Shown: positions 1,327-19,300 of the stretch, piece by piece | Layout of the letters: every line of letters starts with the position of its first letter | How positions within the stretch are numbered: the first letter of the stretch is position 1 | Virus record (IMG/VR): IMGVR_UViG_3300032092_004242 | Location: 1 to 34,793 of that record | Length of the DNA stretch: 34,793 nt | Origin: a virus | Strand: one strand, 5' to 3' | Position numbers and translations under genes: made by a program | The notes under the pieces: generated by a model | Told to the model about the DNA's origin: nothing | Databases searched by the model: none | The model's input: only the letters and a program-made list of their open reading frames with translations

Positions 1327-2091
1327 ATGGCAACACAAAAAGATTTAGCACAAAGAATTTGGTTAGGGCCTGTTGTTGATAATGACGATCCAGAAAAACT
1401 AGGTCGATGCAGAATAAAAGTTTTTAGCCTTTTTGATGATATACCCGATGAAAGTGTTCCTTGGGCATTTCCAGTAACCAATAGTGTTTTTGCAGGTGGG
1501 GCTGGGGGATTTGGAAGCTTATCAATACCTAAAATAGGTGCAATTGTAAGAGTTCAATTTTCTGAAGGAAATTTATACTCTCCGGAGTACTATGGAATTC
1601 AGACTATTAACCGAGCAATGCAATCTGATATTAGTGACACATACCTAAACAGTCACGTTCTTGCTTATGATGAAGACGAAGAGATGAAAGTCTACTATAC
1701 TCCGGGGAACGGTATGGAAATCTTCCACAAAGATTCTCATATTACTATCAATCCGGATAGCAGCATAACCATAGAACACAAAGACAGTCAAAGCATCATA
1801 GAATTGGTCGGCACTACCATCAATATCACGGCAAACAGTACTATCAATATCACTTCAAATTCGCTAATCAAGGCAGAGTCTACCGAGGTGAATATGAACG
1901 GATCTGCGACTACAAAGCTTGGGCCCGCTCCAATGTATTCGGCAGTTCTCGCCGAACCTCTCTGGGCATTTCTTAAAATGATGGCGGGAGCAGTTGACGC
2001 AAAACTCCCGTCTACTCCTGGCGTAATGGTAGGCGCGGCTTCTTCATTTGAACAGCTTTCAACTTCCAAGAACGTTAAAGTTTCGCAATAA
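1327..2091 (+). CDS. gp5: gp5-like baseplate central spike protein (OB-fold plus short beta-helix, no lysozyme)
   Basis: The 254-residue protein would form the tail-tip spike under the baseplate hub. Residues about 10-95 match the OB-fold pattern of gp5/VgrG proteins: a DDPEKLGRCRIKVF strand, then VPWAFPV, then the KIGAIVRVQFSEG strand and YYGIQ. Residues about 125-190 contain short alternating strands (ITINPDSSITIEHKDS, then INITANSTINITSNS) typical of the intertwined beta-helix. Phage T4 gp5 has a lysozyme domain between these two parts; here nothing of that size or motif is present. The last 60 residues are a separate tail. The ATG at 1327 was chosen because the ATG at 1323 runs straight into TGA. 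There is no Shine-Dalgarno sequence. Its stop overlaps the next start (TAATG). A VgrG/gpV-type spike is the same family under another name. Confidence 0.85.
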   Translation: MATQKDLAQRIWLGPVVDNDDPEKLGRCRIKVFSLFDDIPDESVPWAFPVTNSVFAGGAGGFGSLSIPKIGAIVRVQFSEGNLYSPEYYGIQTINRAMQSDISDTYLNSHVLAYDEDEEMKVYYTPGNGMEIFHKDSHITINPDSSITIEHKDSQSIIELVGTTINITANSTINITSNSLIKAESTEVNMNGSATTKLGPAPMYSAVLAEPLWAFLKMMAGAVDAKLPSTPGVMVGAASSFEQLSTSKNVKVSQ

Positions 2092-5000
2092 TGAAAAAAG
2101 AGATACATGGTATAAATTGTGAATGCTGCGAATCTAAATCACCCGAGGCAAAGCAGATCTTAGAGGAAATTAGAAAAATTCTGGATCCAAGTGGCACGGG
2201 AATAGAGTCCGAGAAAGAACAAATACTAAAGAAATTTGATCAAGTCGTGGATCAATTTACACGGACGGTTAGCGCAGATGACTACAATAAGGTAGAAATA
2301 AATGCCGACGGCAGCGAGTACCGACCGTATGAGGCAATTCCCGAAGACGAAAGATTTGTTGGTAGCGTTGATGCAAATGGAGGCCTCGCATCTCTAAGAA
2401 AAATAGTCGACGAGGTTTTTAGTCTGCCAGACGGAGACCTGAATTTTGAACTCCTAAAAATTGATGATCCTAATAAAGAAGTAGGCGGGCTCAAAGTCAC
2501 CGAGATCACTGACCATCCAGGAATCGATGTTTCAAAATTAGTAGACTTCGATAGCATCAACATGGGACCAATTCAAAACTTAAAGATCTCAATTATATCA
2601 AAGACTATTGAGGCAACTATTGGAATGAAGTTTGGTCCAGTTTCGCTAGGTCTGCTGTTCAAAATAGGCGGTGGAGATGTTGCATGGGCGCCTGCATTTT
2701 CAGTAAAAACCAACGAAGAAGCTCTTGATAGATTAAAAGGATCCACATACAAAAAAACGCTCACACCTTCTGGACCAGAAGGCCTGGATGAGCTAAAGGC
2801 TCTCGCCAAAGAGCAATTTGCATCACCTGAAAACTCATATGTAAAAGAAATGCTCGAGCTGGCAACAGATAAAGAGAATTTCTTTGAAACTGCTGAGCTT
2901 CTTAAAGTGAACATACAGAAAGACGTGGATGTTGCAAAAGAAATGGCTGATATGGTAAAAGCCGTGGAGAGCGTAAAAGAGATAGAAAAGCTTTCTTCCG
3001 TTCCTGCAAATGGAGATCCTGATCTGGTAATTATACCAGAAAAGGCGGTCCCTTCCGATATTGGCAAAGTCATAGGCAAATGTGCTGAACGAGTACCATC
3101 TCCAGCGCCATATAGGCCTGAGGAAATTCAAAAAGTCCATGATCAAAATTGTAAAAACTGGAAAGCGCCTGGAAGAGTGCTTGTCAAAGATCCTGGAGAA
3201 CAATCTGGTCCTGAGACAAAAACTGTGTCAGTGGACATTAAGATTGCGGGTAGCGGTGACGTTGTTTCTGCATTTGCAAGAGAAAAAGGTGATCTTGCTC
3301 CGCTCGCAGAGGATGCTGCGCTAACTGCAAAATTCAATGATATTGGCGATGCTCCGGATCAGGATGGGTTTATTGCAATTGATTTTGTTAAAAACCCTAT
3401 AGACTCTGGTTTACTTCAATCCGATGCAGGTTCTACTCTAAATATCCCTGACGTTTCTCTTCCAAACCAAGCCGAGGCAATTGGCGAGTTGGAAAAATTC
3501 ATGGAAGGCCTACAGAAAATTACCAATGAGATGCAGTCGTGTGCAAAGACCAAAAGTGATGCGTCAGATCGCTGGTGGGGGTTCTTTGAACACACGTTCC
3601 AGCACAGGATCACTACCAGGTATTTTGATCTATTACGAGACAATTTAGAAAACTATTATGGAGAACTACAAAGCATTTTAATACAGAGAGATTCTGCTCT
3701 TAAGCAACTTGCGCTTACTCAAATTAGCGAGAGAGAAATAACAACGAACCGGGAGAAATTCGAGACCTTAATAGAAGAGACTTTGTATACCCCAGGCGCC
3801 AACGGCGAATCTATTGATCCCAACTATATTGCTGCGTTTTCAAATGGAATTCTAAGCGCCGAGGAAAGAAACTATCAGTTATCCATATTGGAAGAGACTC
3901 GGGATTCTTTCAATGAATTTGTAGAAATTTTAGGACAAATAGGAAATCAAGACCTGAGTAGCATTAGACAAAGCCTGCAGTCATCTAACAACCCTCTTAC
4001 AAATACTGTAGGATTCCCTCCTGCCTCCAATGCGCTCACAAACATATGGTGGCCGCCTAATTATGCGTCTTTAGTTTCTTCACAGAATCTATTTTGGACT
4101 GTGATGGTAAAAGGAAACATTGCTGATCGATGCAAAGAACTCTGGACACAGGCTTCAACAACCTCTTCAAGAACATTGCAAATTCCTGTAGATGGAGTAA
4201 CCACGCCTCTTACTCCTTACATAGTGCCTATATCACTTCCGTATTACACGTCAGAAGGCAACATTATTCAGAATCGCACTGGCCTATTTGAAACAGGAGT
4301 TTGGAATAAATTCTACTCGGCGCAAAGAATTAACGCTTTTTTTACATACCAGGAGCAGGGTTACAATCAGCAGCCTCCTCAATACGATGACAGAGGAAAT
4401 TTAATAGGTGAAAAAATTCAAAAAATAGTAAAGAACGGTCTAGAGGAAGATGTAATAATAGAAAGTCCGGCAGCTGCTGAAGGGCTGGAAGTAGATGACG
4501 CAGTCGCTACTGCTTTCTTGGAAAATATGGACGCAAACCTGCGTATACGGGTTGAGCAGGCGGCTTTGAACATTGAAGCATCTACAGCGTACAGCAACTA
4601 TGTCAATAATGTTTTGAATGATGCAGCTCAAAAAGAGGCAGCAAAAGTTTTCTTTGAAGAATTGCAAAATAGAAACTTTCTAGATGGCCCGAGAAATATC
4701 TTTGCAATAAATTCAATCAACGACTTTCGAAGAAAATCTTTTGTCTGTGAAAAATATACTGAGCTCATACTGCAGGAGTTAATCGACTTGGAAATTACGA
4801 TGCAGAATGCACAGGCATGTGTTGATCAAAAAGAGAAAGACATAGAAGAAGAAGCAAAACGGAATCTCACAAGTGTTGATGAAGGAGGCTCACAAAATCA
4901 AAGTCTGGAAGCACAGTGCAAGCAGCTGCTTGGATCAGATCCAGTAGGACAGAGACCGCCAAGCGGAAAATGTCCAAGTTACACAAAGAACTGTTATTGG

Positions 5001-7154
5001 AAGGAATACACCAAGATTATGCAAAAGGTGAGTCTACTTCCAGTCATAGAGCTTGACCCGCCTAATATGAGCCAGCGACTCTTTAGGTATTACCCAGTGG
5101 CTATACAAATACCGATTCCTCCGCCAATTCCTCCGCTTCCTTCTCTAGCAATGGGCATACCGAGCCCTATTCTTTGCATACCTCTTCCATATGTGTGGAA
5201 ACACATCATCACTGTCACAACACCCATAGGAACTATCGTGGTCTGGATTGCATTGGCTGGAATTGTGCCATCTCCGTTTGTGATGCTCATTGATGAAAAA
5301 GGCGAGGCTACATTTATGGTATCCTTGTTTGGTCCATGTTCAATACCGCACCCAACCGTAGTCAGCCCCGCAACGGCCAACATTGAACTCAAAGCCCTGC
5401 TAGATTTGATTCTTCCTCCTGGAACAATTAAGATCAATCTAAGCTCGCCACTAGGAAAACTTTTAGCAGGTAGCACTCGTAATGACGTTGACAATCCAGA
5501 TTCTGGAAAAAATATCATAGACAAGCTCAAAGAAAACATCAAGTCTTCTTTTGATCAATTAGAAATTAACGACCCGCCTTCACTTGGAGGAAACTCACCC
5601 GAGGCTATCGAGAGGCGGAGAAAGATTAAAGAAGCGTTTGAGCTTGTACCACCCGATGCTCAGCAAATTGAGAGAGGTCTAACTGAAGTGTTTAGCATAG
5701 TGAACGCCGCTATCGATGAACTGAAAATACCCGTGATCAAATTTCCAAAGGACGATAAGAAATTGATGATGCCTACTTTGGGGCCTGGCGAAATTATTGA
5801 CAACTTCCAAAAACTGCTAGAGACAGCTCTAGCCGCTCCGGCGGAACTGAAAAAGACAGTCCTCCAGGATATTGGTGCTGCTGTTAAAGTTCTCGATGTT
5901 AAGAAAACAATCAAAGAGCGCGTTACACAAGCAATTGATAAACCATCAGTAAAAGAGTTTTTTAGAGATCTGGATCAAGAGATATCGGATTTGGAAAATC
6001 GTCTTTCTCTGGACGTGAATATAACAGCAGAAGAAAAAGTAATAGAACGTGTCAACGCAATCAAAAAAGCTGCTAAAGAGGTTTTAGGAGAAGTTGCTAA
6101 AGAAATAACTCCAGAAATCTTAGGCTTTGTTGCAAAAGCGCTAGATGTTCCGCCTCTTCCATTTCCATGTTACACAAACATAACGCTGCCAGCGGTACCG
6201 CCTTACGTGTATCTTCTCATAGCTGCCATCAAAGCTGCTCCATCTATTATAGACGCGCTTTCTGCAGAACGTATTGCAGAACTTGTATCTTTTGAACTTG
6301 ACCTATCAAAGGCACTTCCAAGAGCAACTCCGATGTTCTATGGAACTATTAACGGGCTCCTTGACGCTATTCCTGACCTGTCAGTTCCCGCAGGTCTCAA
6401 CGACAATATGTTTAAGCAGACAATTGACATGGTGAAGCAAATACCTACAAAGTTTAAGGTGCGCCTTCCAAAGGTTGGCTTACCAACCCAGGTTGTCATT
6501 CCACCGTCTCTGATTAAAACACTCTTAAAAGAGGCTGCGCAGATAGCAATTGAAGGACTCATTGGCTTAATAATGGGAAAAGTGTATGAAGCAATCCAGG
6601 AAGGAAACGCTGCAAAGATCATCGCAGTATCAATGATCATCAAAGCAATGTTTGGAGTTTCTCTTTCTGACATTAAAGGAAGCGATATCAAGAATTTCAT
6701 CAATGGCTTTTTGGAATCCACACTTTATCCAGTACTAGATACAATTTCTAACATCATAGATCTGGTCAATTCTCTAAAAGGCAATTTTCTGAGCATAATT
6801 GAGCTCTTTCAATTCCCACCAAAGATTTCTCTTCCTGGGAATGACGGACCTTTTTATGATGTAGGTGAATTTGTGGTCAAGCCAGTAGTGCAGCCTATCA
6901 TTGAATCCGTTCTTCCGATACTTTTTAATAATTTGCCAGCCATTGTAACTCTTCTTGCTTGCAGTTTTACGCCTTCCAGAGTAGCGTTTACTAAATTGCA
7001 TCCAACTAAACCGGTAGACAGGTTGCCGTCTTGGGAGTCTCTGAGCATCAAAAACATTCCGTTCTTGGTGTGGCTAGACCAACTAATAGGCACAGCTCAA
7101 AGAAAAGGTGGACTGGGATCGGCATATGTAATTCCATACGTCTCAGTTCCATAA
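2091..7154 (+). CDS. Very large virion-associated protein of unknown function (1687 aa)
   Basis: I do not recognise this protein. It starts in a TAATG overlap with the spike gene, which suggests translational coupling and a linked role in the tail or baseplate. A C-x-C-C cluster is at residues 10-13. Residues about 200-320 and 470-960 are charged and largely helical. A Pro-rich stretch at about 1008-1026 (PIPPPIPPLP) leads into a strongly hydrophobic segment at about 1038-1067 (TTPIGTIVVWIALAGIVPS). Further hydrophobic stretches occur near 1370-1390, 1476-1520 and 1608-1626, separated by charged helices at about 1140-1350. The pattern could suit membrane contact during injection, or a tape-measure or hub-associated role, but no catalytic motif supports any of these. 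Length and composition resemble no single T4 baseplate protein that I know. The coding call is certain; the function is open. Confidence 0.75.
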   Translation: MKKEIHGINCECCESKSPEAKQILEEIRKILDPSGTGIESEKEQILKKFDQVVDQFTRTVSADDYNKVEINADGSEYRPYEAIPEDERFVGSVDANGGLASLRKIVDEVFSLPDGDLNFELLKIDDPNKEVGGLKVTEITDHPGIDVSKLVDFDSINMGPIQNLKISIISKTIEATIGMKFGPVSLGLLFKIGGGDVAWAPAFSVKTNEEALDRLKGSTYKKTLTPSGPEGLDELKALAKEQFASPENSYVKEMLELATDKENFFETAELLKVNIQKDVDVAKEMADMVKAVESVKEIEKLSSVPANGDPDLVIIPEKAVPSDIGKVIGKCAERVPSPAPYRPEEIQKVHDQNCKNWKAPGRVLVKDPGEQSGPETKTVSVDIKIAGSGDVVSAFAREKGDLAPLAEDAALTAKFNDIGDAPDQDGFIAIDFVKNPIDSGLLQSDAGSTLNIPDVSLPNQAEAIGELEKFMEGLQKITNEMQSCAKTKSDASDRWWGFFEHTFQHRITTRYFDLLRDNLENYYGELQSILIQRDSALKQLALTQISEREITTNREKFETLIEETLYTPGANGESIDPNYIAAFSNGILSAEERNYQLSILEETRDSFNEFVEILGQIGNQDLSSIRQSLQSSNNPLTNTVGFPPASNALTNIWWPPNYASLVSSQNLFWTVMVKGNIADRCKELWTQASTTSSRTLQIPVDGVTTPLTPYIVPISLPYYTSEGNIIQNRTGLFETGVWNKFYSAQRINAFFTYQEQGYNQQPPQYDDRGNLIGEKIQKIVKNGLEEDVIIESPAAAEGLEVDDAVATAFLENMDANLRIRVEQAALNIEASTAYSNYVNNVLNDAAQKEAAKVFFEELQNRNFLDGPRNIFAINSINDFRRKSFVCEKYTELILQELIDLEITMQNAQACVDQKEKDIEEEAKRNLTSVDEGGSQNQSLEAQCKQLLGSDPVGQRPPSGKCPSYTKNCYWKEYTKIMQKVSLLPVIELDPPNMSQRLFRYYPVAIQIPIPPPIPPLPSLAMGIPSPILCIPLPYVWKHIITVTTPIGTIVVWIALAGIVPSPFVMLIDEKGEATFMVSLFGPCSIPHPTVVSPATANIELKALLDLILPPGTIKINLSSPLGKLLAGSTRNDVDNPDSGKNIIDKLKENIKSSFDQLEINDPPSLGGNSPEAIERRRKIKEAFELVPPDAQQIERGLTEVFSIVNAAIDELKIPVIKFPKDDKKLMMPTLGPGEIIDNFQKLLETALAAPAELKKTVLQDIGAAVKVLDVKKTIKERVTQAIDKPSVKEFFRDLDQEISDLENRLSLDVNITAEEKVIERVNAIKKAAKEVLGEVAKEITPEILGFVAKALDVPPLPFPCYTNITLPAVPPYVYLLIAAIKAAPSIIDALSAERIAELVSFELDLSKALPRATPMFYGTINGLLDAIPDLSVPAGLNDNMFKQTIDMVKQIPTKFKVRLPKVGLPTQVVIPPSLIKTLLKEAAQIAIEGLIGLIMGKVYEAIQEGNAAKIIAVSMIIKAMFGVSLSDIKGSDIKNFINGFLESTLYPVLDTISNIIDLVNSLKGNFLSIIELFQFPPKISLPGNDGPFYDVGEFVVKPVVQPIIESVLPILFNNLPAIVTLLACSFTPSRVAFTKLHPTKPVDRLPSWESLSIKNIPFLVWLDQLIGTAQRKGGLGSAYVIPYVSVP

Positions 7155-7197: not shown

Positions 7198-7205
7198 TAT
7201 AAATA
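7198..7205 (+). promoter_or_regulatory. TATAAATA motif touching the S1 gene start
   Basis: This is an exact match to the T4 late-promoter core, but it ends on the A of the ATG at 7205. If it were a -10 element, the transcript would start inside the gene, so it may instead be an A/T-rich translation leader. The 50 bp gap before it (7155-7204) contains no hairpin or Shine-Dalgarno sequence. Confidence 0.2.
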
Positions 7206-8419
7206 TGCAAATCAAAAATAACACAACAATCGACTTTGACTGGGCGGCTTTTGAAGCAGAAGACCGTCAAGCACGAAGAATCCCAAACCCTACCATTTTG
7301 AAAAAATATGGTGTGAAAGTTTGGAGACATGACAGCGGAGCAGAAGAAATGTTTCTCCGCTATGAAAAATCTGTTTCTGGCGGAATAAAAGAACCAAGAG
7401 TAGGGGAATATCACTCAATCACTTCTGTCGTCAGCATAAATGACAAAGAAATGGTAGTAACTCTTTCTGGTATGATTGACGCCGTCATTCAATTAGAAAA
7501 AGAGAAGCCGTATTTCAAAACTATCGGCATGAACCAAGAAACTTTTGTGGAATGGATGAAAAACACAGAAGGGGCGTTCTCGGGATTCATTGGAGAGGAT
7601 GGAAAAAAGGTGGTAATTGAAACCATCAAGCCATACACTATAGCTTCTCTAAGTAAAGGACATTCGCAAAGCATTCGCACAGAGTTCTTCCATCAGATAG
7701 AAAAACCAACAAGTGCGTACACCGCAAAAGTTCTTAGCAGAAACGGTGGAGGCTTCTTGGTAAATGTGGCTGGCGTAGAAGGATTCTTACCAGGATCGCT
7801 GGCGGCAGCAAATATAGTTAGAGACTTCGAATCTATGCTCGGTAAAGAAATTTATGTAATGGTAGAGGATTACTTGAAGGATGCTGGTACATTTGTATTC
7901 AGCCATAAAAAGTATCTTTCGCATGTATTGCCTTCCAAAATTGACAGCCTTAGCTTGGAAGAAAAGTATTCTGGAGTGGTTACAGGCACTGCTAAATTTG
8001 GTGTATTTGTGGAATTCAATGAAATTTTCACAGGTTTGATACACACTAGCAAAATGACTCCTGATATGCGCGAAGACTTCAAAAACGGAAAGTTCTCGGC
8101 AGGAGACACCGTTCACTTCTGGATTAAAGAAATTACACCAGATAAGAAGATCATTCTTACCGATGAAGACCCGAGCATTCGTATGAAAGAACTTGAAGAA
8201 TTCAAGGAAAAGAATCTTGGAATCATCACAGGTGGTGAGGTTGTTTCCATACAACCATTTGGAACTCTGGTAAAACTTCAAAAGGATATCGTGGGATTGA
8301 TCTCCAAGAAAGAAATTAAGGTAAAGAAGAAAAACTTTGCTGTAGGGGATCACGTAATGGTATCGGTTGAACGCGTTCACAATGATAAAATCTTTTTAAC
8401 GTTGCCTAACGAGGAGTAA
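7205..8419 (+). CDS. S1-domain RNA-binding protein (ribosomal protein S1-like)
   Basis: The 404-residue protein carries three S1 (OB-fold) RNA-binding domains: residues about 171-235 (YTAKVLSRNGGGFLVNVAGV, then EGFLPGSL), 254-321 (YSGVVTGTAKFGVFVEF, then GLIHTSKM) and 336-401 (GEVVSIQPFGTLVKL, then VGLISKKE, then GDHVMVSVERV). Each shows the usual G-x-V, F-G-x-F/L-V, G-L/F-I/L and V-G-D steps. Residues 1-170 are not clearly S1, though 65-100 could be a degenerate copy. Cellular S1 has 4-6 domains, so this is a short relative. It probably binds mRNA and may act at the ribosome; this is inference. The gene lies between structural genes and has no Shine-Dalgarno sequence. A polynucleotide phosphorylase or IF-1 identity is excluded because no other domain is present. 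Confidence 0.85.
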   Translation: MQIKNNTTIDFDWAAFEAEDRQARRIPNPTILKKYGVKVWRHDSGAEEMFLRYEKSVSGGIKEPRVGEYHSITSVVSINDKEMVVTLSGMIDAVIQLEKEKPYFKTIGMNQETFVEWMKNTEGAFSGFIGEDGKKVVIETIKPYTIASLSKGHSQSIRTEFFHQIEKPTSAYTAKVLSRNGGGFLVNVAGVEGFLPGSLAAANIVRDFESMLGKEIYVMVEDYLKDAGTFVFSHKKYLSHVLPSKIDSLSLEEKYSGVVTGTAKFGVFVEFNEIFTGLIHTSKMTPDMREDFKNGKFSAGDTVHFWIKEITPDKKIILTDEDPSIRMKELEEFKEKNLGIITGGEVVSIQPFGTLVKLQKDIVGLISKKEIKVKKKNFAVGDHVMVSVERVHNDKIFLTLPNEE

Positions 8420-8461: not shown

Positions 8462-9859
8462 ATGAAAATTAAGAAGAACTATAGCCCTGCTGAAATTTTA
8501 GAAGCAGGAAAGATTGGAGTAGAATTCGAGTTCTACTCTAATTTGAAAGGTCACGTAGAGACAGCGCGGTCATTGTCAAAATATATCGGGAAAAGAGTTG
8601 TAGTTCCTATGGCTCTTTCCGATATAAAAGAGATGAAGCCGCTATATCACTCGCCAATAGCACCAACAAGTGATATTTTTAAACTTGAGCCAGATTACTC
8701 TGGCGGAAAGACTATGTGCGAATTGGTCACTGGCCCTATGAAGTACGCGGAGGCCAGGAACGTAATCATCAAAGTCTTAGAATGGATTAGCAATAACGGG
8801 TACACTACCGAAAGATGCTCAATTCATATGAACGTTTCAATTGATGACGTAGAGCTTCCTACAATTTTTGACATCAAAAACATGAATGTTCTAAAGTTCA
8901 TTCTGTCATTTGATGAGGAAAATGTGTATGCATCTTTTCCTAGCAGAAGGGATTCGGTTTACGCCAGAAGTATCAAAGAAATACTGCCTAACAAATCTGC
9001 TTTCTTTGTAAATAAAGATAGCACGGTGTACAGCAGAAACGCTTTTCAAACTCCTTTTGAAAAGTACTATGGAGTCAACTTTCTTAAGCTTGAGAAAAAT
9101 TACTTGGAGTACCGATACATAGGCGGTGCGGATTACGAAAAGAAAACAAAAAAGATTTTGGATCTGTTGTCTTATTTCGTAACTCATATGCATTCAGTTC
9201 TAAACTTTATGGATTATACAAAATCTGAAGTCCGTGAATTTAAGAAGATGATTGAAAAGCAGAACAAAATTTCTCAAGCCTTTGTAAGATACGTGGATTT
9301 CAAAAAAGAATTCCCGGATATCAAGGTAACTCTTGATATGAATGACAACGATGATGTTCTTGAAGGCGTTTGGGTAAATTTGCGAGATAAGTTATTTGAA
9401 GTCATCGTAACCGGTGGAATGACCAAGGGTGAGTTCAACCTTGATACCGAGGCGGGCCGCTTTCAACTAAAGAGCACTAAGCTAAAGAATTGCAGGCTTT
9501 CTGATTTAGAGATGATTGACTGTGAAATTGAAGGAGTGCTTGAGAGATGTTCATTCTATGGTTGCAAGATAAAGAATAGCCGCATTTTATTTAGTGTTTT
9601 TCCTAAAGGAAATACTGTTGATTTTTCAAAAATAGTAGAATCTCCGCTGCATGTTGAAAATACCTGCAACGACTGCTTTATTGAAAACAAGTCAAACATC
9701 ATTAACTGTCAAGTTGAACGAGGAGTGATACGAAATGGTGAAGTTGGAAAGCTTGCAAAAGTTTCTAAAGAAACTATGGTTGTTGAGGAGAAAGAACCTG
9801 CAGAATCATCGGGCAGCTATAATGAAAATTCAAAAGATAAAAAGAAGGATAAAAAATGA
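8462..9859 (+). CDS. Amidoligase-like protein with pentapeptide-type C-terminal region
   Basis: Residues about 15-240 resemble the glutamine-synthetase-fold amidoligase (COOH-NH2 ligase) family. There is an N-terminal IGVEFEF strand (E21, E23), then SGGKTMCELVTGPM (E87), then RCSIHMNVS (H122, N124), then NYLEYRYIGG (E216, R218) followed by a helix. These are the acid, His and E-x-R positions expected for nucleotide/metal binding and ligation in that family. Residues about 325-430 have Cys, Leu or Ile recurring every five residues (NCRLSDLEMIDCEIEG and onwards), as in pentapeptide-repeat or beta-solenoid folds. A Lys/Asp-rich tail ends the protein. It would join an amine to a carboxylate, perhaps on a peptide; the substrate is unknown. 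Its stop overlaps the next start (ATGA). The fold call rests on motif order only, so moderate confidence. Confidence 0.6.
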   Translation: MKIKKNYSPAEILEAGKIGVEFEFYSNLKGHVETARSLSKYIGKRVVVPMALSDIKEMKPLYHSPIAPTSDIFKLEPDYSGGKTMCELVTGPMKYAEARNVIIKVLEWISNNGYTTERCSIHMNVSIDDVELPTIFDIKNMNVLKFILSFDEENVYASFPSRRDSVYARSIKEILPNKSAFFVNKDSTVYSRNAFQTPFEKYYGVNFLKLEKNYLEYRYIGGADYEKKTKKILDLLSYFVTHMHSVLNFMDYTKSEVREFKKMIEKQNKISQAFVRYVDFKKEFPDIKVTLDMNDNDDVLEGVWVNLRDKLFEVIVTGGMTKGEFNLDTEAGRFQLKSTKLKNCRLSDLEMIDCEIEGVLERCSFYGCKIKNSRILFSVFPKGNTVDFSKIVESPLHVENTCNDCFIENKSNIINCQVERGVIRNGEVGKLAKVSKETMVVEEKEPAESSGSYNENSKDKKKDKK

Positions 9860-10203
9860 AGCATCTAAAAAATTTTTCGGAGTTTGTCAACGAGTCGCAT
9901 CTTCCATTTGACATCGAAAAAGCTCTTCGTCTTGGCGGTTTCTCATTTGAAAGAGACACTGAAAGAAGCGAAGAAGTGCTAGATGACGATAACCGATTTG
10001 ATGAGGTGGATGTATATGTAGCCAATGACCGCAATGGCGGAACTGAATGGGTTGTCACAGCTGGTATTGGTGGAAGCACTTATTATTTAGATATTGCTAA
10101 GGATGATACAATTGTTTGGAGTTCAAAATATCCGCGTTCACAGCAAGCGCACTTTAATCAAGATTGTATGAACAGCATCGGGTTCTTGCCCGATTTTGCA
10201 TAA
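9856..10203 (+). CDS. Small protein with capsid-targeting-like N-terminus
   Basis: The 115-residue protein begins MKHLKNFSEFVNES. This resembles the T4 capsid-targeting sequence MKTYQEFIAEA, found on internal proteins that are packed into the head and cut after Glu by the prohead protease. Here the cut would fall after FVNE, residue 13. The rest (residues 25-115) is acidic, then beta-rich (EVDVYVAND, then TEWVVTAGIGGSTYYLDIA), with no catalytic motif I recognise. The start overlaps the stop of the amidoligase-like gene (ATGA) and is preceded by AAGGA six bases upstream, one of the few Shine-Dalgarno-like sites in this window. The tight coupling suggests the two proteins act together: this one could be a packaged effector or the ligase's substrate. 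Both are inference. Confidence 0.65.
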   Translation: MKHLKNFSEFVNESHLPFDIEKALRLGGFSFERDTERSEEVLDDDNRFDEVDVYVANDRNGGTEWVVTAGIGGSTYYLDIAKDDTIVWSSKYPRSQQAHFNQDCMNSIGFLPDFA

Positions 10204-10223: not shown

Positions 10224-10955
10224 ATGACCAGAGCAGAGCTTATTGAAATGGTAAACAACGAGATCACTGGATCTTGTTCGCTTCCGTATTCGGTTCCTGA
10301 GAGAGAAATGGAGAGGATCATAGATCAGGCTCTTAATTGGTTCTATGTCAATTACGGACCAGCCGTTGAAACTCAATACTATGTAATAACGAAAGATTGG
10401 TTTATGAAAGACGAGTTCAAAAAGACTCGATCTTTACTGCTTCCAGATTGTGTAGTTTCTGTTTACGAAATCAGGGAAATCAATGGCGCAGGCCGACTTG
10501 GAACTATTGATGCGGACTTTTACGACAACCGCTTGCTGGCTGCTGAGCTATTTCTTTCGCCTTTTGCGTCGGATGACTTGGTTCTCCGAGCTGCTCAATA
10601 CTCTTATTGGGATTTAACACAAGCTTTTATCTTGGAAAGGGTGTCTTACGACTTCAATCGAAATACTAAAAGACTTAAAATCATAGGTAGAAATCCCAAG
10701 AGAAACTGCGCTGTTCAAACGTATGTTAAAATTGAAGAAAGCAAGCTTTATGATGATTGGTTCTTCCAGAGATGGGTGACAGCGCAGGCTAAAATCTCTT
10801 TAGGTAGAATCTTAGGGTTCTTTTCGTTCAACCTTCCAGGCGGAGTGCAAGTAAATGCTGACAGCATTAGAGAAGAAGGAAAAGAGGAGCTTGAGCAAAT
10901 CAAACAAAGGATTGACGACGAAAACAGCCCAGACTGGTTCTACATATTCCACTAA
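10224..10955 (+). CDS. Putative virion structural protein (neck or baseplate-associated)
   Basis: The 243-residue protein is not matched to a named family with certainty. Its N-terminus is helical (residues 1-45: RAELIEMVNNEI, then MERIIDQALNWFYVNYG). A mixed beta core follows (YYVITKDWFMKDEF, LLLPDCVVSVYEIREI), then helices and a C-terminal charged helix (about 215-235). A short N-terminal helical pair followed by a beta core is seen in head-tail connector and neck proteins, and the gene sits six bases before gp25. That context supports a baseplate or neck role. It has no signal peptide, membrane segment or enzyme motif. The start at 10224 follows a 20-bp A/T-rich gap without a Shine-Dalgarno sequence. 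Confidence 0.6.
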   Translation: MTRAELIEMVNNEITGSCSLPYSVPEREMERIIDQALNWFYVNYGPAVETQYYVITKDWFMKDEFKKTRSLLLPDCVVSVYEIREINGAGRLGTIDADFYDNRLLAAELFLSPFASDDLVLRAAQYSYWDLTQAFILERVSYDFNRNTKRLKIIGRNPKRNCAVQTYVKIEESKLYDDWFFQRWVTAQAKISLGRILGFFSFNLPGGVQVNADSIREEGKEELEQIKQRIDDENSPDWFYIFH

Positions 10956-10961
10956 TTAAAG

Positions 10962-11324
10962 ATGATCAAAGACCTATACATAATCAATCAGAACGAACCT
11001 GGTTATGACGCATTCAAAATTGAAGAGCGCGATTCTGTAAGAATTCTCCTACAGAAAATCAAGATGATTATGTTTACAAGAAAGGGTGAGATTCTAGGAG
11101 AACCGCAGTTTGGCATAAGTTTGGAAGATCTTCTATTTGAATTGGGATTCAGCTCAAACGAACTAAGAAAGGCGTTTGACCAACAGCTTGCTGCGTATGT
11201 GCCCGAGGCTGCCTCTTTTGATCTTAAATTGAACGTCAATTTTGTACCTGGAACTGCCAGGGATGTTGCTTACATTGATATATATGTTAACGGTACTAAG
11301 GCTTTTGGGCTTGTAGCCGTATAA
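10962..11324 (+). CDS. gp25: gp25-like baseplate wedge protein (GPW/gp25 family)
   Basis: The length of 120 residues is typical for the family. The family signature is clear: DSVRILLQKIKMIMFTRKGE, then ILGEPQFGISLEDLLFE, i.e. helix, T-x-K-G-E, P-x-F-G, L-x-x-L-L (residues 24-60). A C-terminal strand pair (DLKLNVNFVPG, YIDIYVNGT) completes the fold. In T4, gp25 joins gp6 and gp53 to form the core of the baseplate wedge and contacts the first sheath layer. The next gene is gp6-like, matching the conserved W-J order of contractile tails. The start has AAAG before the ATG but no Shine-Dalgarno sequence. Confidence 0.9.
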   Translation: MIKDLYIINQNEPGYDAFKIEERDSVRILLQKIKMIMFTRKGEILGEPQFGISLEDLLFELGFSSNELRKAFDQQLAAYVPEAASFDLKLNVNFVPGTARDVAYIDIYVNGTKAFGLVAV

Positions 11325-11340
11325 CATATAATGTCATTCA

Positions 11341-13044
11341 ATGCTAGAGATCTTTAAACTTACCAGGATAACCTTCAATCAAATGTACTTTGATGTGAAG
11401 AATTTCCTGGAATCAAAGTACGAACAATCTGACCAAATTTTTTCTCCAGCTAGCCCTTATGGACAGCTGTTAACCGTTATTCTTGATTTAGGTCGATTGA
11501 TGTTCTATTACATAGAAGATAGCATCAACGAGCTTAACATATATACTGCTCAGCGTCCTAATTCTATACGAGGTCTTGCTAGAATAGCTGGTCACGATCC
11601 AACTCGAGCAATATCGGCCACAGGTACTCTTAAATTAACATACAATGGTCAAAAGGTTGACATGTATGGAAACACTGTGGTGATACCAAACTTCACCACT
11701 CTACAGTGTAAACTCAACGGTCTTACTTATACACTTGTTTTGGATCAAGAGGCGGTCACATTAGATCTGAGCGCCAGAAATTCGATTGAAGTATTTGCTC
11801 ATCAAGGAGTTATAGAAGTACAATCTTTCACCGGCACAGGAAACGATCTACAGTCATTCACTACTTCTCCAAAGAAAAACTACATCATTGACAACTTTTT
11901 TGTAAAGGTTTACGTCAATAATGAAGAGTGGAAAAAATATGATTCTTTGTATGACGTAAGTTATGATGAGAAGGCTTGCATTGTTAAAACAGGTATTAGC
12001 GGTGGAGTTGACGTATTTTTTGGAAACACGTACTTTGGAGCGGTTCCGCCTCTTGGTGCTGTGATTAGGGTTGAATACATGACAACTTCCGGAAACGCTG
12101 GAAATATCATCACTGATAATGCGCCGCCTTTCAAATTTTTACAGGAAGGATATGACATTGCTGGTCAGGATGTAGATCTCAACAAAATTTTGGATATTGC
12201 GATGGTAAATGCGTTTTCCTTTGGATCGGATGCAGAGCCTCTCACTTTAACAAAATTACTTGCACCTAAAACAAGTCGTTCTTATGTGCTAGCTAACACT
12301 GATAACTACGTCTACTTCTTTCAAAAGTTTAACTTCTTTTCTGTTGTTGATGCGTTCAACACTCTTGGGGACGATAACATTGAGGATGACAATACTGTCT
12401 ATTTGTTTCTCATACCCGATGTAAATAAGCGGAAAAAAGCTTCCGACGACTACTTTTCGGTTCCTATCAGTTTATTTAGATTGACTGAGCAGGAGAAGAC
12501 GAAAGTTTATGAGTTAATTGAAAAGAGCGGACAAAAGATCATGACGGTTGTGAATAAAATTGTGGATCCTATTATTAGCAGATATGTTATGATGGTGAAT
12601 GTGACTGCTTTTGAAGGATTTAATAAAGACATCATTCGTCAACAAATTATTTCAAAGTGCTCTGATTATTTCCTTAATAATCGCAGAAGAGACCGCATTC
12701 CAAAATCCGACCTCATAGCAGTAATTGAATCTATTGAAGGCGTAGATTCGGTCAACGTCTATTTTGTTTCTGAGAAAAACGAGCAGTTCAAAAAGAATCC
12801 AAAAAATGATGCAACAAAAAAGGATATTGGTTTAGATGAATTCGGCGATATCATCATGGAAAAAGGAGAACTTGTAATTATTCGTGGTGGATGGGTCAAC
12901 CGTTATGGAGAATACTTCAATACAGGAATAGATGCCGGAAAGCCTTCTACTCTAAATATAACTTTCACCAAGAAAGATACTCCAAGATCTTTGAACATGG
13001 AGCTTCATAGAATTGAGGTTAACAATATCAAAAAATCTGTATAA
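11341..13044 (+). CDS. gp6: gp6-like baseplate wedge protein (baseplate J family)
   Basis: The 567-residue protein has the baseplate J plan. A helical N-terminus includes PASPYGQLLTVILDLGRLMF (residues 37-56), and NIYTAQRPNSIRGLARIAG follows (about 67-85). A beta-rich middle begins ATGTLKLTYNG. The C-terminal alpha-beta domain (about 420-480) includes DIIRQQIISKCSDYFL and IPKSDLIAVIESIEGVDSV, the usual last domain of gpJ/gp6. T4 gp6 is about 660 residues, so this one is slightly short. In contractile tails gp6/J forms the ring of dimers that triggers sheath contraction. It follows gp25 by 16 bp and overlaps the next gene (TAATG), as expected for subunits made in fixed ratio. Confidence 0.85.
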   Translation: MLEIFKLTRITFNQMYFDVKNFLESKYEQSDQIFSPASPYGQLLTVILDLGRLMFYYIEDSINELNIYTAQRPNSIRGLARIAGHDPTRAISATGTLKLTYNGQKVDMYGNTVVIPNFTTLQCKLNGLTYTLVLDQEAVTLDLSARNSIEVFAHQGVIEVQSFTGTGNDLQSFTTSPKKNYIIDNFFVKVYVNNEEWKKYDSLYDVSYDEKACIVKTGISGGVDVFFGNTYFGAVPPLGAVIRVEYMTTSGNAGNIITDNAPPFKFLQEGYDIAGQDVDLNKILDIAMVNAFSFGSDAEPLTLTKLLAPKTSRSYVLANTDNYVYFFQKFNFFSVVDAFNTLGDDNIEDDNTVYLFLIPDVNKRKKASDDYFSVPISLFRLTEQEKTKVYELIEKSGQKIMTVVNKIVDPIISRYVMMVNVTAFEGFNKDIIRQQIISKCSDYFLNNRRRDRIPKSDLIAVIESIEGVDSVNVYFVSEKNEQFKKNPKNDATKKDIGLDEFGDIIMEKGELVIIRGGWVNRYGEYFNTGIDAGKPSTLNITFTKKDTPRSLNMELHRIEVNNIKKSV

Positions 13045-13316
13045 TGGCCGAAACACCTAAACCAGGTCCACATTTAGGAAGACCTAGCTATTACAACTGG
13101 ATGATACATCAGCAAGATGTATTGAAGAATCAGGGGTTTGACTATGAAAACCGTCTGTTTGAGAAGACTATGTCAAATTATATGTTTGTAGATTCACGAA
13201 AAGAATATACATTTTTGCAATTTCAAGGAATGTTAGTTTATCTAATCAATTACATAGGAAGCATTAAGAAGGCTTTCAACTACACTGTAGATAAAAACTA
13301 TAAAGTACACTCTTAA
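13044..13316 (+). CDS. Small conserved-looking protein between gp6 and giant wedge protein
   Basis: The 90-residue protein is coupled to its neighbours by TAATG overlaps at both ends, strong evidence that it is real. It has a Pro-rich start (MAETPKPGPHLGRPSYYNWM), a charged middle and a hydrophobic helix at residues about 58-77 (LQFQGMLVYLINYIGSIKKA). It has no enzyme motif. The position between the J-like and I-like wedge proteins suggests a minor wedge component or assembly factor. It is too short to equate with T4 gp53, which is about 196 residues. Confidence 0.65.
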   Translation: MAETPKPGPHLGRPSYYNWMIHQQDVLKNQGFDYENRLFEKTMSNYMFVDSRKEYTFLQFQGMLVYLINYIGSIKKAFNYTVDKNYKVHS

Positions 13317-16300
13317 TGCTTTTAACAAATAGGCTAAATTTCTTTGACAAGAAGGGAAATGAAATCAACCTTCTTCCGCAAGTTGGTACAAGGGTAACTG
13401 TAGTCGATCCTACCAATTCTGGTGGATATGGCGCAACATTTAATGTGTACACAAATCCAGACGGAAACATTGCTGCACTAGAAATTGCAAATGGCGGATA
13501 TAACTACGATATAACGGGAAACGCTTATCTGCGATTTGAAAATCTACTCACGGGATATGTTTGGGACAGCAATCCTGCAGATCTCGTAGTCGATCCGCTA
13601 ACAGGAACAATCATAGGTTTTAACGGTCTATCATTTACAGGAAATTCCGATTGGAAGCCTGGGAATGAGACATTTGCGTATCCGAATGTTACATGGCTTG
13701 GCGAAATGTATTTTGACATGGTATCCACTGGTTTGATCGAGAACCAAGATATTTTTGTACTTGAGCAAGTAGTAGCTACTCCGCAAACGCCTTTCAATCA
13801 ACTTAATTATGGTTATAGCTTTCCAAGAGCAGAGGAAGGGCCTGCTAATGCAGTGAGCTTTTATTCAAATGATGTTGCAAATTCAGCAATTACTTCAAGC
13901 ACTGGAGTAGGATCTGTGACAGTGTACATTGAATCCGTTACGGGAAACTTTTTTGCGGGGGAAGGAAAGATATTTAGTATGTCCAGCACAGCAAATCTAA
14001 AAGCTGGAATGATTATTGAAGGCACGGGAATACCCGCTGGCACAAAAATTGTTTCTGTTGATAGCGCAACACAAATTACAATAGATTCGCTGCCAACTCA
14101 AAATGGCATGTCTATTGCCCTTGAATCATATGTGCCTCATGGATTTATTGCTGGCATGTCTATTAGAGTATATGACAATTCGCTCTCTTTGCCAATCGCT
14201 GGAACTTATGAGGTTGTGCAAGTTTCTGATAGAAAAGTCTATTTTTCTACTACTAGTGCCATACCTACAATCGGCAGTACGGCTGCTGCAGCCACTACAT
14301 TCTTTAGTGCAGCTCCTAAATGGCGAGGACGCATGGTAGGTCTTGAAGAAGAGATCTTTATGTTTACTGTGAAGTACGAAGAAGAGTTTCCCGTGATTAC
14401 AAAAGTTCAATCTTTTGTTCACGACCCAATAAATGCGTCAGAACTCACAAGTCCGGATAGTTTTACAGCAGGGCTAACTGGCGATCCAGCCGTAGGAAAT
14501 TTCATAGACGCGTCAGTACCTGGGTATCAATTTAGACAAGTATTTGAGAATTGGGAAGAGCGTCTTATGCATTTTCACCTAGGTTTTTCTGCAGGAACCG
14601 AAGGATCATATATAAGAGTTTTTGTTTTAGAAGACATTACATTTCCGTATGCGCCTAGGTTAATTTCACAGATTTCTCTTAGAGGAGAAGCGCAAGGCGA
14701 AGACGAAAGACTGCAAAAGCTATTAGAAAACTTTGGAAGATCAGTAACCGAGAATCAAGAATTGATTCTCCGTGATAGCGACGTTTTTGAAGACCTTCCT
14801 AACTATCTTCTTCTTAATGAGAAGAGAAAAGAAATGCTTTTGCAAGGCGATCAAATTTGGCCTTATCTTGGATCGTATAAAGGACTTGTAAACATCATCA
14901 ATTGGTTTGGATACTATGACATTCGCATCAAGGAATACTGGCTAAATGTCAATAAGAATGACGCATATTATGGAAAGTACAAGCAAATTCAAATACCTTT
15001 TCAGTTAGAAGCACGAGGAGTTCCTTACGGTATTGAAATGATGCCGAGCAAAGTCTACAAAAAGACTAATAAGTTTGGCTTATTTTATGACTTAAATAAA
15101 GAAAGCGGGGTATTAGATGAAAATGGCGTTCCGCAAACAGTGGATGCATTTCAGTTTAGCAATCAAGAAGTTCTTATTAAATTGTTTGCATTAAAACAAT
15201 ATTTGGAAGGTAGCTTCATACCGTTAAATGCAAAAATTGTAGATATTGTAGGTGAAGGCGTCTATTTTGAAAGATACGCCGCTAACACCTGGAATGATAG
15301 AGTAGAACAATTTGTGGTTGAACTCACAAGAAACGTTGATTTTGTTGTAAATGATACACGTTTGCCTATTGAAGATGCTCGTAGATATGATACTAATGAG
15401 GTAGCGTATTCTTATTCTCCTGGTACAGATACCTTAAAGTCGTATTTTGCAACATACACCATTAAAGGTGTGAATATGACTTTGCCTCTGGCAACGGTAA
15501 ATAGAATTCCTACGCTCACTGTTGGTTCTACTTCAGGAAACGCGTCTCCGTCAAAATTATGGAATGGCGTAGCCTATGTAAAAGGCAGTCCTAATAACTA
15601 CTTTCTATCAGCAAATTCTGATGGCGGAATCAACTACACAGTCGGTGATATTGTCACTCTTGGTGGAGGCGTCTTTTCTACTCCTATTAGAGTGCGCGTT
15701 GGAGCAATTGCTCCTGGCGGAGTTGTTACTTCTGTACAAATCCTGACAGGGCTTACTCAAGGAAGCCGTTATTATTCATTGCCTCAGAAATTTTCGCAAA
15801 CTTACGTAGCTAGTTCAGATTACGTTAATAACTTCTATTACTCAGGAATAGGTCAAGGCCTTAAACTCGATGCAGGGGATATTCAATATGAATTAGAAGG
15901 CGTAACCACCACTACTCAAGGAAAAGGTTATCCTATCCTGGACCCGCCAGTGTTTATAGTAACTGACCCTCTCACTGGATCCACGATCCCGTCATCTTAC
16001 AATTTCAACTTATCAACTGTTCAAGGGCCATACGTTGGTTATTTTGATGAAGGAAAGCAATTAGAAGCTCTTACCAATGAGCCTAATGCACCAGTAGCAG
16101 CATTTCTAGAACTTGAGGCCATCGGTTTCGACGTTACATGGGATGAGATGGCATTCACTTGGGAGAATTTATGGGGAGCCACTGAAGCAACATTAAAAGC
16201 ATACATAGATCCGCTGCCTGCTGGAACTGGAGCAATTGAAGCAATTGAAGTAGTAGAGCCCGGAAGCGGATATTCCAGGACGCCATCTGTTGAATTTATT

Positions 16301-19300
16301 GGAGGAGATGGCATTAATGCTACAGCAACTGCTTTTATGCGTGATGGAAAGGTAAAAATAATAGAGGCAGAAGTTACATCAATAGCAGTTCTTTCTCCTA
16401 CATCGTCTAGGGTATTTTTTGCTACACCACAGACAGCGTCTCCATTGCAAATTGAGATATTGCCAACTATGTTTGTAACAGCTACTGATACTGGTGGTAA
16501 TAGTTTAGAAAAGCCTTGCGTAGTTATTACGTATGATACCGTGGGAGGCAGTTATATGGACATAACTACCGCCTTTAATTCAGTACCAGGTAATTTTAAT
16601 CTACAGATACACGCGGTACAAATTACTAGCAGTGGTTCGGCTTATGTATCTAATCCTGAAGTGAAACTTGTTGGTGGCCAAACTTCTACTCTTTATACTT
16701 GGGATGAGATTGGAAGAGGAAATTTCTATGATATGGAATGGTTGGTCACTTCTGAACCTGGAACAAAAAACTTTACATATACTTCTGGACAAAAATCAAT
16801 TGACGAGCTAATCAATCACACCGTTTTATTGCCATACAAAGGGTTCTACAAGGTTGAGATGATTGTGTATGACACCGATAACAATTGGGTGAATGAAATA
16901 AAGAGAAACTTTGTAGAGGTGTACATGCCTGAAGCTCTCTCTTCTTTTGCTACAAGGTACATTGGACCGTCATCAACTCCTGGAGTAAGCGATGGTTCAG
17001 AATCAGAATCAAACATTGCACAACTGGAGAAAAATTGCGTGGACACTTGGGATGAAGCTTTTTATATGTGGGATGAGTATTGGGGAAGATGGATCAATCC
17101 AATCAAGACTTGGACTACGTGGGACGACTGTGATATTCTTTGGGACACATTAAATGTTACACCTCTCAGTCAAGAAAATAATTGGAACTACCCCAATGTG
17201 CCGGAATACGAAGTCTATCGGGTATCGGCATATGATAACCTAGTTGGCGACGTATCAAATCTAACAACAATTACTCCTGGATCGACATATCAATTAGAAG
17301 TTGAATTAGCAGATGTTCAGAACAGGCCAACTCTAAATGCAGCAATACCAGAATGGATTTATATCCGAAGAGGGGATAACATTTTTCAAGTAGAAGCAGT
17401 CAACTCGGGCACAGTCACGGGTAATACATTTAGCGTTACAATAACTACGACTAATCCTCTGCCTGATAGTTTTCTATCTAGCCCTACTACGTGGGAAGTT
17501 CTAAGAGAAGTTGCTAACACCGTGGTTGTGCAAGATGATCTCTACACTCCAGAGAATGGAAAGACTCTGGTTCCAGGACAGTTTATCACTCTTAAAGGAA
17601 ACAACAACACGCCTCTCAATGATAGCCGTTGGAATTTGGCTATGCCTCCATTGACATGGGGTATTCCAGTGTATGCAAAGACTGTTGACGGCGTTTCAAC
17701 TTTAGATTCTGGAATCCAAATAGATTCGGAGTACGCTTCTAATCCATTTATGACAAAAGAATGGGTGAACGGACAAATCTATAATTTCAGAAACCAGTCC
17801 TATGAGAACGGATATCTCTTCTTAAGCCCGCTTCCAAACGCAAATACTTCGGCAGTAAACATTCAGGTATTGGAAAGTTTCACTGAAGACAATTGGGGTA
17901 ACCGGGTGATGTTCTACATTAACAATACCAATACTAGTGAATATGCAACTACTGCGGACATCTTACGAGAAGTTCGTCCAGGATTTACCGAGTTTGACTT
18001 ATTGATTGTGGAACCTGACCAGACATTTTGGTGGTGGTTTGATCCAACAGATACAGAATTCCCACCTCCACTGGTTTCTCCAGTATTCCCAAATACATCC
18101 AGTGGAGCGTATCGCCCTAGCCCTACAGGCGGTCCAGGCTATATTTACGGAGTGTACTCTTCTCCTTCTACAACAGACGCATACTACATTGATATAGAAG
18201 CAGCAACGCAGAACAATGTTTCAATTCCTGCTAATGTGAAGAAGCTTTGGTATAATAGAGGCTTGGATCGATTCTATTTTCCAGAAGGCCAAGGAATAGG
18301 TAACGAAATATATGTACTTGATCCAAACACAAATACGTCTTCTCTATTTACAACTTTGTCAAGCCCAACATCATCCAACGCAAATATGACTTTTGTAGAT
18401 GACGTTGGGTATAACATGATCTATTGTGCAACCACTGATGAATTTGTGTATTGTTTAGATGCGGTAACTGGCTTTGAAATCGCGAGAATAGACACCACGC
18501 CTAACACAAGCGGGTCAGGGATCACATACGATCCAATAAGAAAGCATGTATGGGCTCTGGCTGGAGATAACTCACCGCTTTCAATTATTGACGCAGACCC
18601 TAATTCATCTACTTGGAACACGATTATTGCAACAGTAACTCTCCCAGATGTAGCTCTAGGAATTAGATATGTTTCGCAGACAGATACCATGATAGCTTGG
18701 AGGTCTTCGGCAGCCACTACCAATTATTACACGATTGAATGCGTTGCGCCGTATACAGTGACCACCAATAACATTCCTTTTACGTGGGATACTGTTCGTG
18801 GAATAGCTTACCATGAGGCTGACGGGCATTGGTGGATTGGGAGAACTAATGGAAATATAGACATATTTAGCTTTTTTGATCTTTCAACACCAGTGCACAC
18901 CATATCGGTGCCTACGCCAGGGCTATTTAGATTTATAGTCTATAATCCAGTTACTAATTCAATGTGGGTATGTCGTGAAGTTGGTGGGGTGGATTCAGTA
19001 TACGAAGTCAAAGGTCTCATATATGATACAGGGACTACTCTATACGAGCAGCATTTTAGAACCATAGATGCTTACGAAGACACAAGCAATCAAGGAACTC
19101 CTTGGAGCATCTGGAGCGAAGCCAGCTCTTCTATTTATTGCGTAGAAGCGGTTTCTCTTGAAGGAAAAAAGTATAATGAACTAGAGACGGTACTTCAACA
19201 AATAGACAACGTAACTGTTTTTGGATGGATAGAGTACAAATACAACTCTTTCCCTACACGGACGTATTCAAATAGTTCAGCCACCAATCTTAACCTGGTA

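Follow-up and report, generated by a model that had tools for sequence, protein, structure and literature searches.

Amidoligases encoded by phages are known from LUZ24 (gp18) and tf (tf_21), both assigned to PF12224. By annotation, their genes stand in a cassette together with genes for a glutamine amidotransferase, a RimK-like ATP-grasp protein and a gamma-glutamyl cyclotransferase. The available text of three papers places the described phage amidoligases in this cassette (PMC3890496, PMC5498523, PMC10580990), and that of the first assigns the described enzyme to the early module. Here, the IMG/VR virus record IMGVR_UViG_3300032092_004242, a fragment of 34,793 bases, was analysed over its full length (hereafter the window). 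It carries a gene for a protein of 465 amino acids (aa), which is very probably an ATP-dependent carboxylate-amine ligase of the Amidoligase_2 superfamily with the glutamine synthetase (GS) fold, catalysis being predicted from the fold and the conserved motifs. In contrast to the genes of LUZ24 and tf, the ligase gene of the window lies in a tail cluster, between genes for a protein like ribosomal protein S1 and for a neck protein like gp13, and its end overlaps the start of a gene for a 115-aa protein.

A first-pass annotation of the window had proposed an undescribed system at this place. The proposal holds for the architecture and the location, which were not found described in the available text of the literature on phage amidoligases, a body of text that does not extend to the founding survey of Iyer et al. 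2009; it does not hold for the enzyme, the superfamily of which is known. No assay report for the ligase family was found in the same texts. The kind of enzyme is known, and what is new is its fusion to a solenoid, its tie to the S1 gene and its setting in a tail cluster.

The predicted ligase and its solenoid

All four ligase motifs named in the first-pass annotation are present (EFEFYS, residues 21-26; CELV, 86-89; HMN, 122-124; EYR, 216-218), and the full set in the catalytic domain is GxExE (19-23), D78xSGG, E87LxTGP, H122xN124, KYxGxN (201-206) and E216xR218. An alignment of 47 sequences shows no variation at G19, E21, E23, D78, S80, E87, K201, Y202, N206, E216 and R218, and conservation of at least 90% at H122 and N124. 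All seven of the residues E21, E23, E87, H122, N124, E216 and R218 are invariant in a further set of 19 sequences that includes huge phages. To judge from this conservation across relatives, the motifs are not there by chance. From the fold, rather than from a residue mapping, the conserved residues would be the counterparts of the catalytic residues of GS. By eye, the motifs GxExE, D-S, GP, CSxH, N and ExR follow in the same order in LUZ24 gp18 and tf_21, which are likewise encoded by phages.

A structure of the ligase was predicted from the 47-sequence alignment, with a predicted local distance difference test (pLDDT) of 87.5 and a predicted template modelling score (pTM) of 0.82. Residues ~7-268 of the model align with glutamine synthetases (Z up to 11.4, 174 aligned residues, root mean square deviation 3.5; Foldseek E=7.3e-5). 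Thus, where the first-pass annotation had allowed for the lack of an amidoligase fold, a GS-like fold is predicted. Identity to GS is 8-15%, the first ~100 GS residues lie outside the alignments, and the window ligase adds the solenoid. In a library of viral structures, an unnamed phage protein ranks first, aligned over nearly the full length (template modelling (TM) score 0.83, 26% identity), followed by many entries named 'amidoligase enzyme', including those of tf and Atu_ph07 (E=1.8e-10); in this library the tf amidoligase belongs to the same family of predicted folds as the window ligase.

At the level of profiles, 21 of the 47 family members match Pfam Amidoligase_2 at E<=0.01 (best 4.4e-6). 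In a set of 12 records of relatives, PF12224 matches over the cut-off in two, namely in a relative from a contig of 482 kilobases (kb) (G001; 22.7 versus 22 bits) and in the Agrobacterium jumbo phage Atu_ph07 (30.2-30.7 bits). The Atu_ph07 protein (AUZ94978) is homologous to the window ligase over residues 62-273 (tblastn 7e-8), with no match over the solenoid part, and it differs in carrying an acidic insert near its N terminus. Several results weigh against the assignment to Amidoligase_2. The window protein taken alone stays below the Pfam cut-off (E=0.006, 16.9 versus 22 bits), 7 of the 12 records have no PF12224 match at E<=0.01, a profile-profile comparison of the ligase family with a two-sequence profile of LUZ24 gp18 and tf_21 is not significant (probability 0.4, E=0.14), and the whole-chain TM score of the ligase against GS in Foldseek is only 0.24. 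Weak, chance-like Pfam matches (MSV199, HEPN, AraC, zinc finger) were disregarded.

The pentapeptide-like solenoid that had been noticed in the first pass at the C terminus of the same chain appears, from the family profile and the model, to be real but degenerate. Residues 323-428 of the model form a ladder of short strands, and the ligase family profile matches MfpA (E=1.1e-4) at profile positions 327-390. Pentapeptide_4 is under the Pfam cut-off for the window protein alone (E=0.066) and is found at E<=0.1 in 15 of 19 members, the window protein included (best 5.6e-6). AlbG and Qnr are matched by the solenoid part of the profile as well as MfpA; compared with these proteins, the window solenoid is short, degenerate and fused to an enzyme, and an action on gyrase is not implied. 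The Pfam scan of LUZ24 gp18 and tf_21 gave no pentapeptide family, in contrast to the solenoid-bearing window ligase. The solenoid would most likely serve to dock the ligase on a partner or substrate.

Distribution and neighbours of the ligase

Relatives of the ligase are encoded by at least 509 stretches in IMG/VR. Eight phage records have a match: two belong to Atu_ph07 and six to uncultured huge phages, of which two are alike in length and match. In the bacterial and archaeal genome collection, a match is seen in only two contigs of metagenome-assembled genomes. Since many viral stretches and records stand against only two such contigs, the ligase is a phage family. Among its carriers are huge phages of 634-735 kb. 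In the available text of Al-Shayeb et al., the largest genomes of that study are placed in the Mahaphage clade, and infection of Bacteroidetes is predicted for them (PMC7162821).

Neighbouring genes were counted in 102 loci (L001-L102), the 101 ligase open reading frames (ORFs) of which form 52 clusters at 90% identity. The Atu_ph07 locus (L022) missed the threshold and stands outside the 52 clusters. The IMG/VR part of the loci is the best 80 of at least 509 plus an earlier scan, and the sample leans to close relatives; gene starts were taken as first start codons, and intergenic distances are approximate. An S1-family gene is found in the fetched locus in 48 of the 52 clusters and a gp13-family gene in 49. 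In 45 clusters the S1 gene overlaps the ligase start or ends no more than 134 base pairs (bp) from it, and in 29 clusters gp13 starts 0-32 bp past the ligase, leaving no room for a gene between them. In the sampled loci, the ligase is a core gene that is inherited beside the phage S1-like gene and the neck gene gp13, and many giant marine phages keep it among neck and tail genes. The neighbouring S1 gene, to which the first-pass annotation had also pointed, is real (Pfam S1) and tightly tied to the ligase. Its product has E=4.9e-63 to E. coli S1, yet scores under all listed NCBIfam equivalog cut-offs, and it is therefore, on its sequence, classed as S1-like and not as a certified bS1.

Samples anchored on the neighbours gave similar counts. 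The ligase is found in 73 of 78 gp13-anchored loci with at least 2 kb upstream (sample: best 80 of 547 relatives) and in 71 of 76 S1-anchored loci with at least 2 kb downstream (best 80 of 524). Where at least 3.5 kb lies upstream of gp13 (73 loci), ligase and S1 are both found in 70 and neither in 3, and one is never found alone; counted by cluster (n=22), both are found in 20 and neither in 2. The 7 of 80 gp13 loci with less than 3.5 kb upstream were excluded from this count and have, by subtraction, both genes in four cases, the ligase only in one and neither in two.

Against a fixed tie between the two genes stand the single gp13 locus just mentioned, which has the ligase without S1, and the five of 76 S1 loci without a nearby ligase. 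In addition, four huge phages (634-735 kb) keep both S1 and ligase but unlinked, with ~48-440 kb between them in the records, and only one of the four has gp13 near its ligase. Atu_ph07, which has the distant ligase homologue, has no S1 match in its genome. The synteny of S1, ligase and gp13 could thus be plain inheritance of a tail operon. Related S1 loci without ligase or gp13 nearby were seen in L256, L257, L259, L260 and L261, and in L256 and L259 gp25 and then gp6 stand directly behind S1.

The small gene and its leader

The two coupled ORFs are found on the strand and at the positions that the first-pass annotation had given (Table 1), and the ATGA that they share is a literal stop/start overlap. 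Both genes are under strong purifying selection between the window and its relative L002, with a nonsynonymous rate (dN) of 0.057 and a saturated synonymous rate (dS) for the ligase gene, and dN/dS of 0.078 for the small gene. The overlapping gene had been regarded as a candidate partner or substrate of the ligase, and a survey of related phages for conserved pairing had been suggested. In this survey most relatives lack the small gene: homologues of the 115-aa protein are found in 5 of the 52 ligase clusters, and 29 of the 52 have no room for it. Among the ten loci with a small-gene homologue, only the window lineage and L002 show the four-base overlap; L118 has a one-base overlap, and in the others the genes are 106-371 bp apart. 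The slot between ligase and gp13 is filled by dissimilar small proteins in different phages, or by nothing. On this distribution, the 115-aa protein was rejected as an obligate partner of the ligase, and it is probably a variable accessory gene. The contrary fact is that each of the ten homologues found has a ligase upstream of it, though they are close relatives. What stands of the earlier suggestion is this constant position; what speaks against it is the absence of the family from 47 of the 52 clusters and the presence of its leader on many dissimilar proteins.

The predicted model of the small protein (pLDDT 83.3, pTM 0.77) has a compact alpha-beta body, and residues 1-12 have pLDDT below 50. 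There is no PDB match at E<=0.001 (best Z 5.2), and therefore no function is read from the fold. The T4 internal proteins are not among the structural matches listed for it, which excludes nothing.

Proteins of the slot have bodies that are dissimilar by eye but begin alike, with MKHLKNFSEFVNE, MKHVKTFESFLNE, MKYIKLYENFLNE and MKHIKLYEDYINE. A first leader pattern gave 32 matches in 2256 ORFs from 52 representative loci, versus 0-2 in 20 shuffles. As this pattern was drawn from the observed leaders and hence biased, a later pattern without the required E and a control with the reversed pattern on DNA were used. Searched as DNA, the leader pattern has 65 matches in 10 of the 12 records, and the reversed pattern has none in all 12. 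With the pattern that does not require it, E still closes the leader in 27 of 36 sequences (46 before collapsing; from fetched loci only, with the T4 locus L107 excluded), and the residue after that E is A, S or G in 16 of the 27, versus 5/27 and 3/27 at the next two positions.

These leaders resemble those of the T4 internal proteins IPI, IPII and IPIII, which are small proteins with a common N-terminal leader. IPII and IPIII start MKTYQEFIAE followed by A, with the cut site between this E and A. The aromatic-to-E spacing is the same as in the window leader, and so is that of the last seven leader residues. Differences are that the window leader (MKHLKNFSEFVNE, followed by S) is three residues longer, that IPI shares only the start MKTFKEF, and that three huge phages each have tens of matches to the leader pattern. 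The S77 protease (PF03420, the family of T4 gp21) has a match in 10 of the 12 records of relatives, six of them over the cut-off; the window record is outside this set.

From these comparisons, it is likely that the 115-aa protein is an accessory protein, not an obligate partner, the leader of which is cut and the remainder of which is packed in the head. Its first 13 residues would act like the capsid-targeting sequence of T4, a prohead protease of the S77 type, such as relatives carry, would cut after E13, and the remaining 102 residues would be packaged into the head, from which they could be delivered along with the DNA; cutting, packing and delivery are all predicted steps. Because the leader recurs on dissimilar genes genome-wide, the protein is a likelier candidate for head-packaged cargo than for a dedicated substrate. 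Some observations weigh against a role as cargo. A looser DNA pattern at ATG has 61, 53 and 25 matches in W02, W03 and W04 (LR756502.1, LR745206.1 and LR756504.1; reversed control 0), matches that were not each gene-checked, and 25-61 leader copies per genome are many for cargo. The looser pattern has no match in the 735 kb phage or in Atu_ph07. The constant position of the ten homologues behind a ligase likewise speaks against cargo.

Some further observations concern leaders and proteases. The S77 match lies inside frames of ~630-810 aa in nine records (G001, G002, G004, G006 and W01-W05), versus 255 aa in Atu_ph07, and the long frames suggest a fused protease. G001 and G005 are also among the genomes with shared T4-like leader matches. 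In the 482 kb contig (L056:11775-17665), a series of small genes follows the ligase, and many of them have near-identical leaders and different bodies. The genes L018:13826-16102 (758 aa) and L019:13826-15817 (663 aa), each the second gene behind its ligase, have the leader-like starts MLRKYGQFINE and MISKYNQFINE and a common HKDLDGV, which looks like a motif of DHH-type phosphoesterases. L018 and L019 come from huge phages, and each also has a leader-like gene that overlaps the ligase end by 4 bp. The ligase was also considered as a carrier of a leader and was rejected, since the pattern is absent from its N terminus and relatives do not conserve the E at position 14.

Gene map of the window

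The order of genes in the tail cluster is gp5-like hub, a 1687-aa ORF, S1-domain protein, ligase, small gene, gp13-like, gp25-like and gp6-like (Table 1). The window has two very large ORFs, of 2822 aa (13316-21784) and 1687 aa (2091-7154), the second of which has no family match at useful E-values in the Pfam and PHROG scans. Any of four loose Shine-Dalgarno 4-mers lies no more than 20 bases from the start in 3 of 17 window genes, a raw count without a background rate. This agrees with the available text of PMC7162821, where Shine-Dalgarno sequences are rarely identifiable in huge phages that carry S1.

Table 1. Positions of features in the window, with the basis of each assignment.
Feature	Position	Strand	Basis
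Baseplate hub/spike gp5-like OB protein	1327..2091	+	Pfam Phage_base_V 3.3e-8; PHROG 37871 5.7e-17
Ribosomal protein S1-like protein, 404 aa, several S1 domains	7205..8419	+	Pfam S1 9.5e-22 (3 stretches); family profile versus E. coli S1 E=4.9e-63
Predicted Amidoligase_2-type (GS-fold) ligase with C-terminal beta-solenoid, 465 aa	8462..9859	+	ORF; Pfam in relatives; model; fold matches
Predicted catalytic GS-like domain, residues ~8-270	8483..9271	+	Structural alignment rows 7-268; conserved columns
Predicted helical linker, residues 277-318	9290..9415	+	Secondary structure of model
Degenerate pentapeptide-type beta-solenoid (predicted), residues 323-428	9428..9745	+	Strand ladder in model; MfpA profile match; Pentapeptide_4 in members
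Lys/Glu-rich C-terminal tail, residues 444-465, mostly pLDDT <50	9791..9856	+	Ligase model
ATGA stop/start overlap	9856..9859	+	With 115-aa gene family, seen only in window lineage and L002
115-aa protein, probable accessory gene in variable ligase-gp13 slot; proposed head-packaged internal protein	9856..10203	+	
Capsid-targeting-like N-terminal leader MKHLKNFSEFVNE, predicted cut after E13	9856..9894	+	Pattern counts; residues 1-12 pLDDT <50; T4-like spacing
Neck protein gp13-like / head-tail adaptor	10224..10955	+	PHROG 211 E=2.5e-14; family profile versus solved neck protein gp13 E=1.6e-4
Baseplate wedge gp25-like	10962..11324	+	PHROG 261 3.5e-6; Pfam GPW_gp25 E=0.011 (under cut-off)
Baseplate wedge gp6-like	11341..13044	+	PHROG 219 (baseplate wedge subunit) 1e-27

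Possible roles of the ligase and the small protein

The best explanation as a whole, to which we give even chances, is that the ligase works on a late protein and that the small protein is head cargo. Because it sits in the tail cluster, the ligase is expected to be expressed late; it would act late in infection and would add an amino acid or a short peptide to a protein acting at that stage. The class of target is put forward more tentatively, at somewhat less than even chances, as either a neck or tail component or the phage S1 or ribosome, with no choice between them, both timing and target being read from gene position. The second of these classes touches on a narrower proposal, a RimK-like role in translation, in which a change made by the ligase to the phage S1 or to a ribosomal protein of the host would bias ribosomes towards phage messages. 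The adjacency and the joint presence or absence of ligase and S1 (45/52 clusters and 73/73 gp13 loci) agree with it, as does the retention of both genes in 4/4 of the 634-735 kb phages, and the available text of Al-Shayeb et al. proposes that phage S1 helps to redirect host translation (PMC7162821). However, the S1 loci without a nearby ligase and the Atu_ph07 genome without S1 fit it poorly, and adjacency is common to the tail genes too, so that this role in its specific form seems unlikely. An action on the 115-aa protein specifically, by tagging or cyclisation, would account for the ATGA overlap in the window and L002, for the position of all ten homologues behind a ligase, and for the leader-like genes that overlap the ligase in L018 and L019; with the family missing from most ligase clusters, the slot filled by dissimilar proteins or empty, and the leader on many unlinked genes, it is very improbable.

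The ligase might instead be a part of the virion, in the neck or baseplate, with a ligase fold that is structural or only self-linking. Beta-solenoids are common in phage tail parts, the gene is located in the tail cluster, and in Atu_ph07 a single gene lies between the homologue and the portal gene. Near-invariant catalytic residues would not, however, be expected for a purely structural role, and three of the four huge phages have their copy away from gp13, which makes a virion part improbable. A role at the cell surface or in metabolism, in which the enzyme would make an unusual amide link in peptidoglycan peptides or in a small molecule, for example as a block to superinfection, is the proposal made for phage amidoligases in the available text of PMC10580990 and PMC5498523, and the ligase is in the same superfamily as the phiEco32/LUZ24-type amidoligases. 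Yet its conserved neighbours are S1, gp13, gp25 and gp6 and not the described cassette. GATase_6 is over the cut-off in none of the 12 records, six of which are possible fragments, in a search that gave one sub-threshold match (E=0.0092; control 14/14) and did not extend to the ATP-grasp and cyclotransferase members. We consider this role to have a low probability.

Returning to the preferred explanation, a ligase working on a late protein, a wider generalisation can be offered as a rather improbable speculation. In giant phages, a conserved module of an S1-like protein and a solenoid amidoligase might modify ribosomes or late proteins by ATP-dependent addition of amino acids or peptides, so that a viral tagging step would accompany late translation or tail building. 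Such a module would be very old, since all four of the 634-735 kb phages searched keep both genes, though unlinked. The ligase, which is probably catalytic, is kept in the tail cluster in hundreds of phage contigs and is found up to the largest phages; in the sampled loci it nearly always comes along with S1, and it is thus a promising candidate for a step of protein modification by the virus. The leader, for its part, yields a set of testable candidates for proteins that are packed in the heads of giant phages and delivered into the cell.

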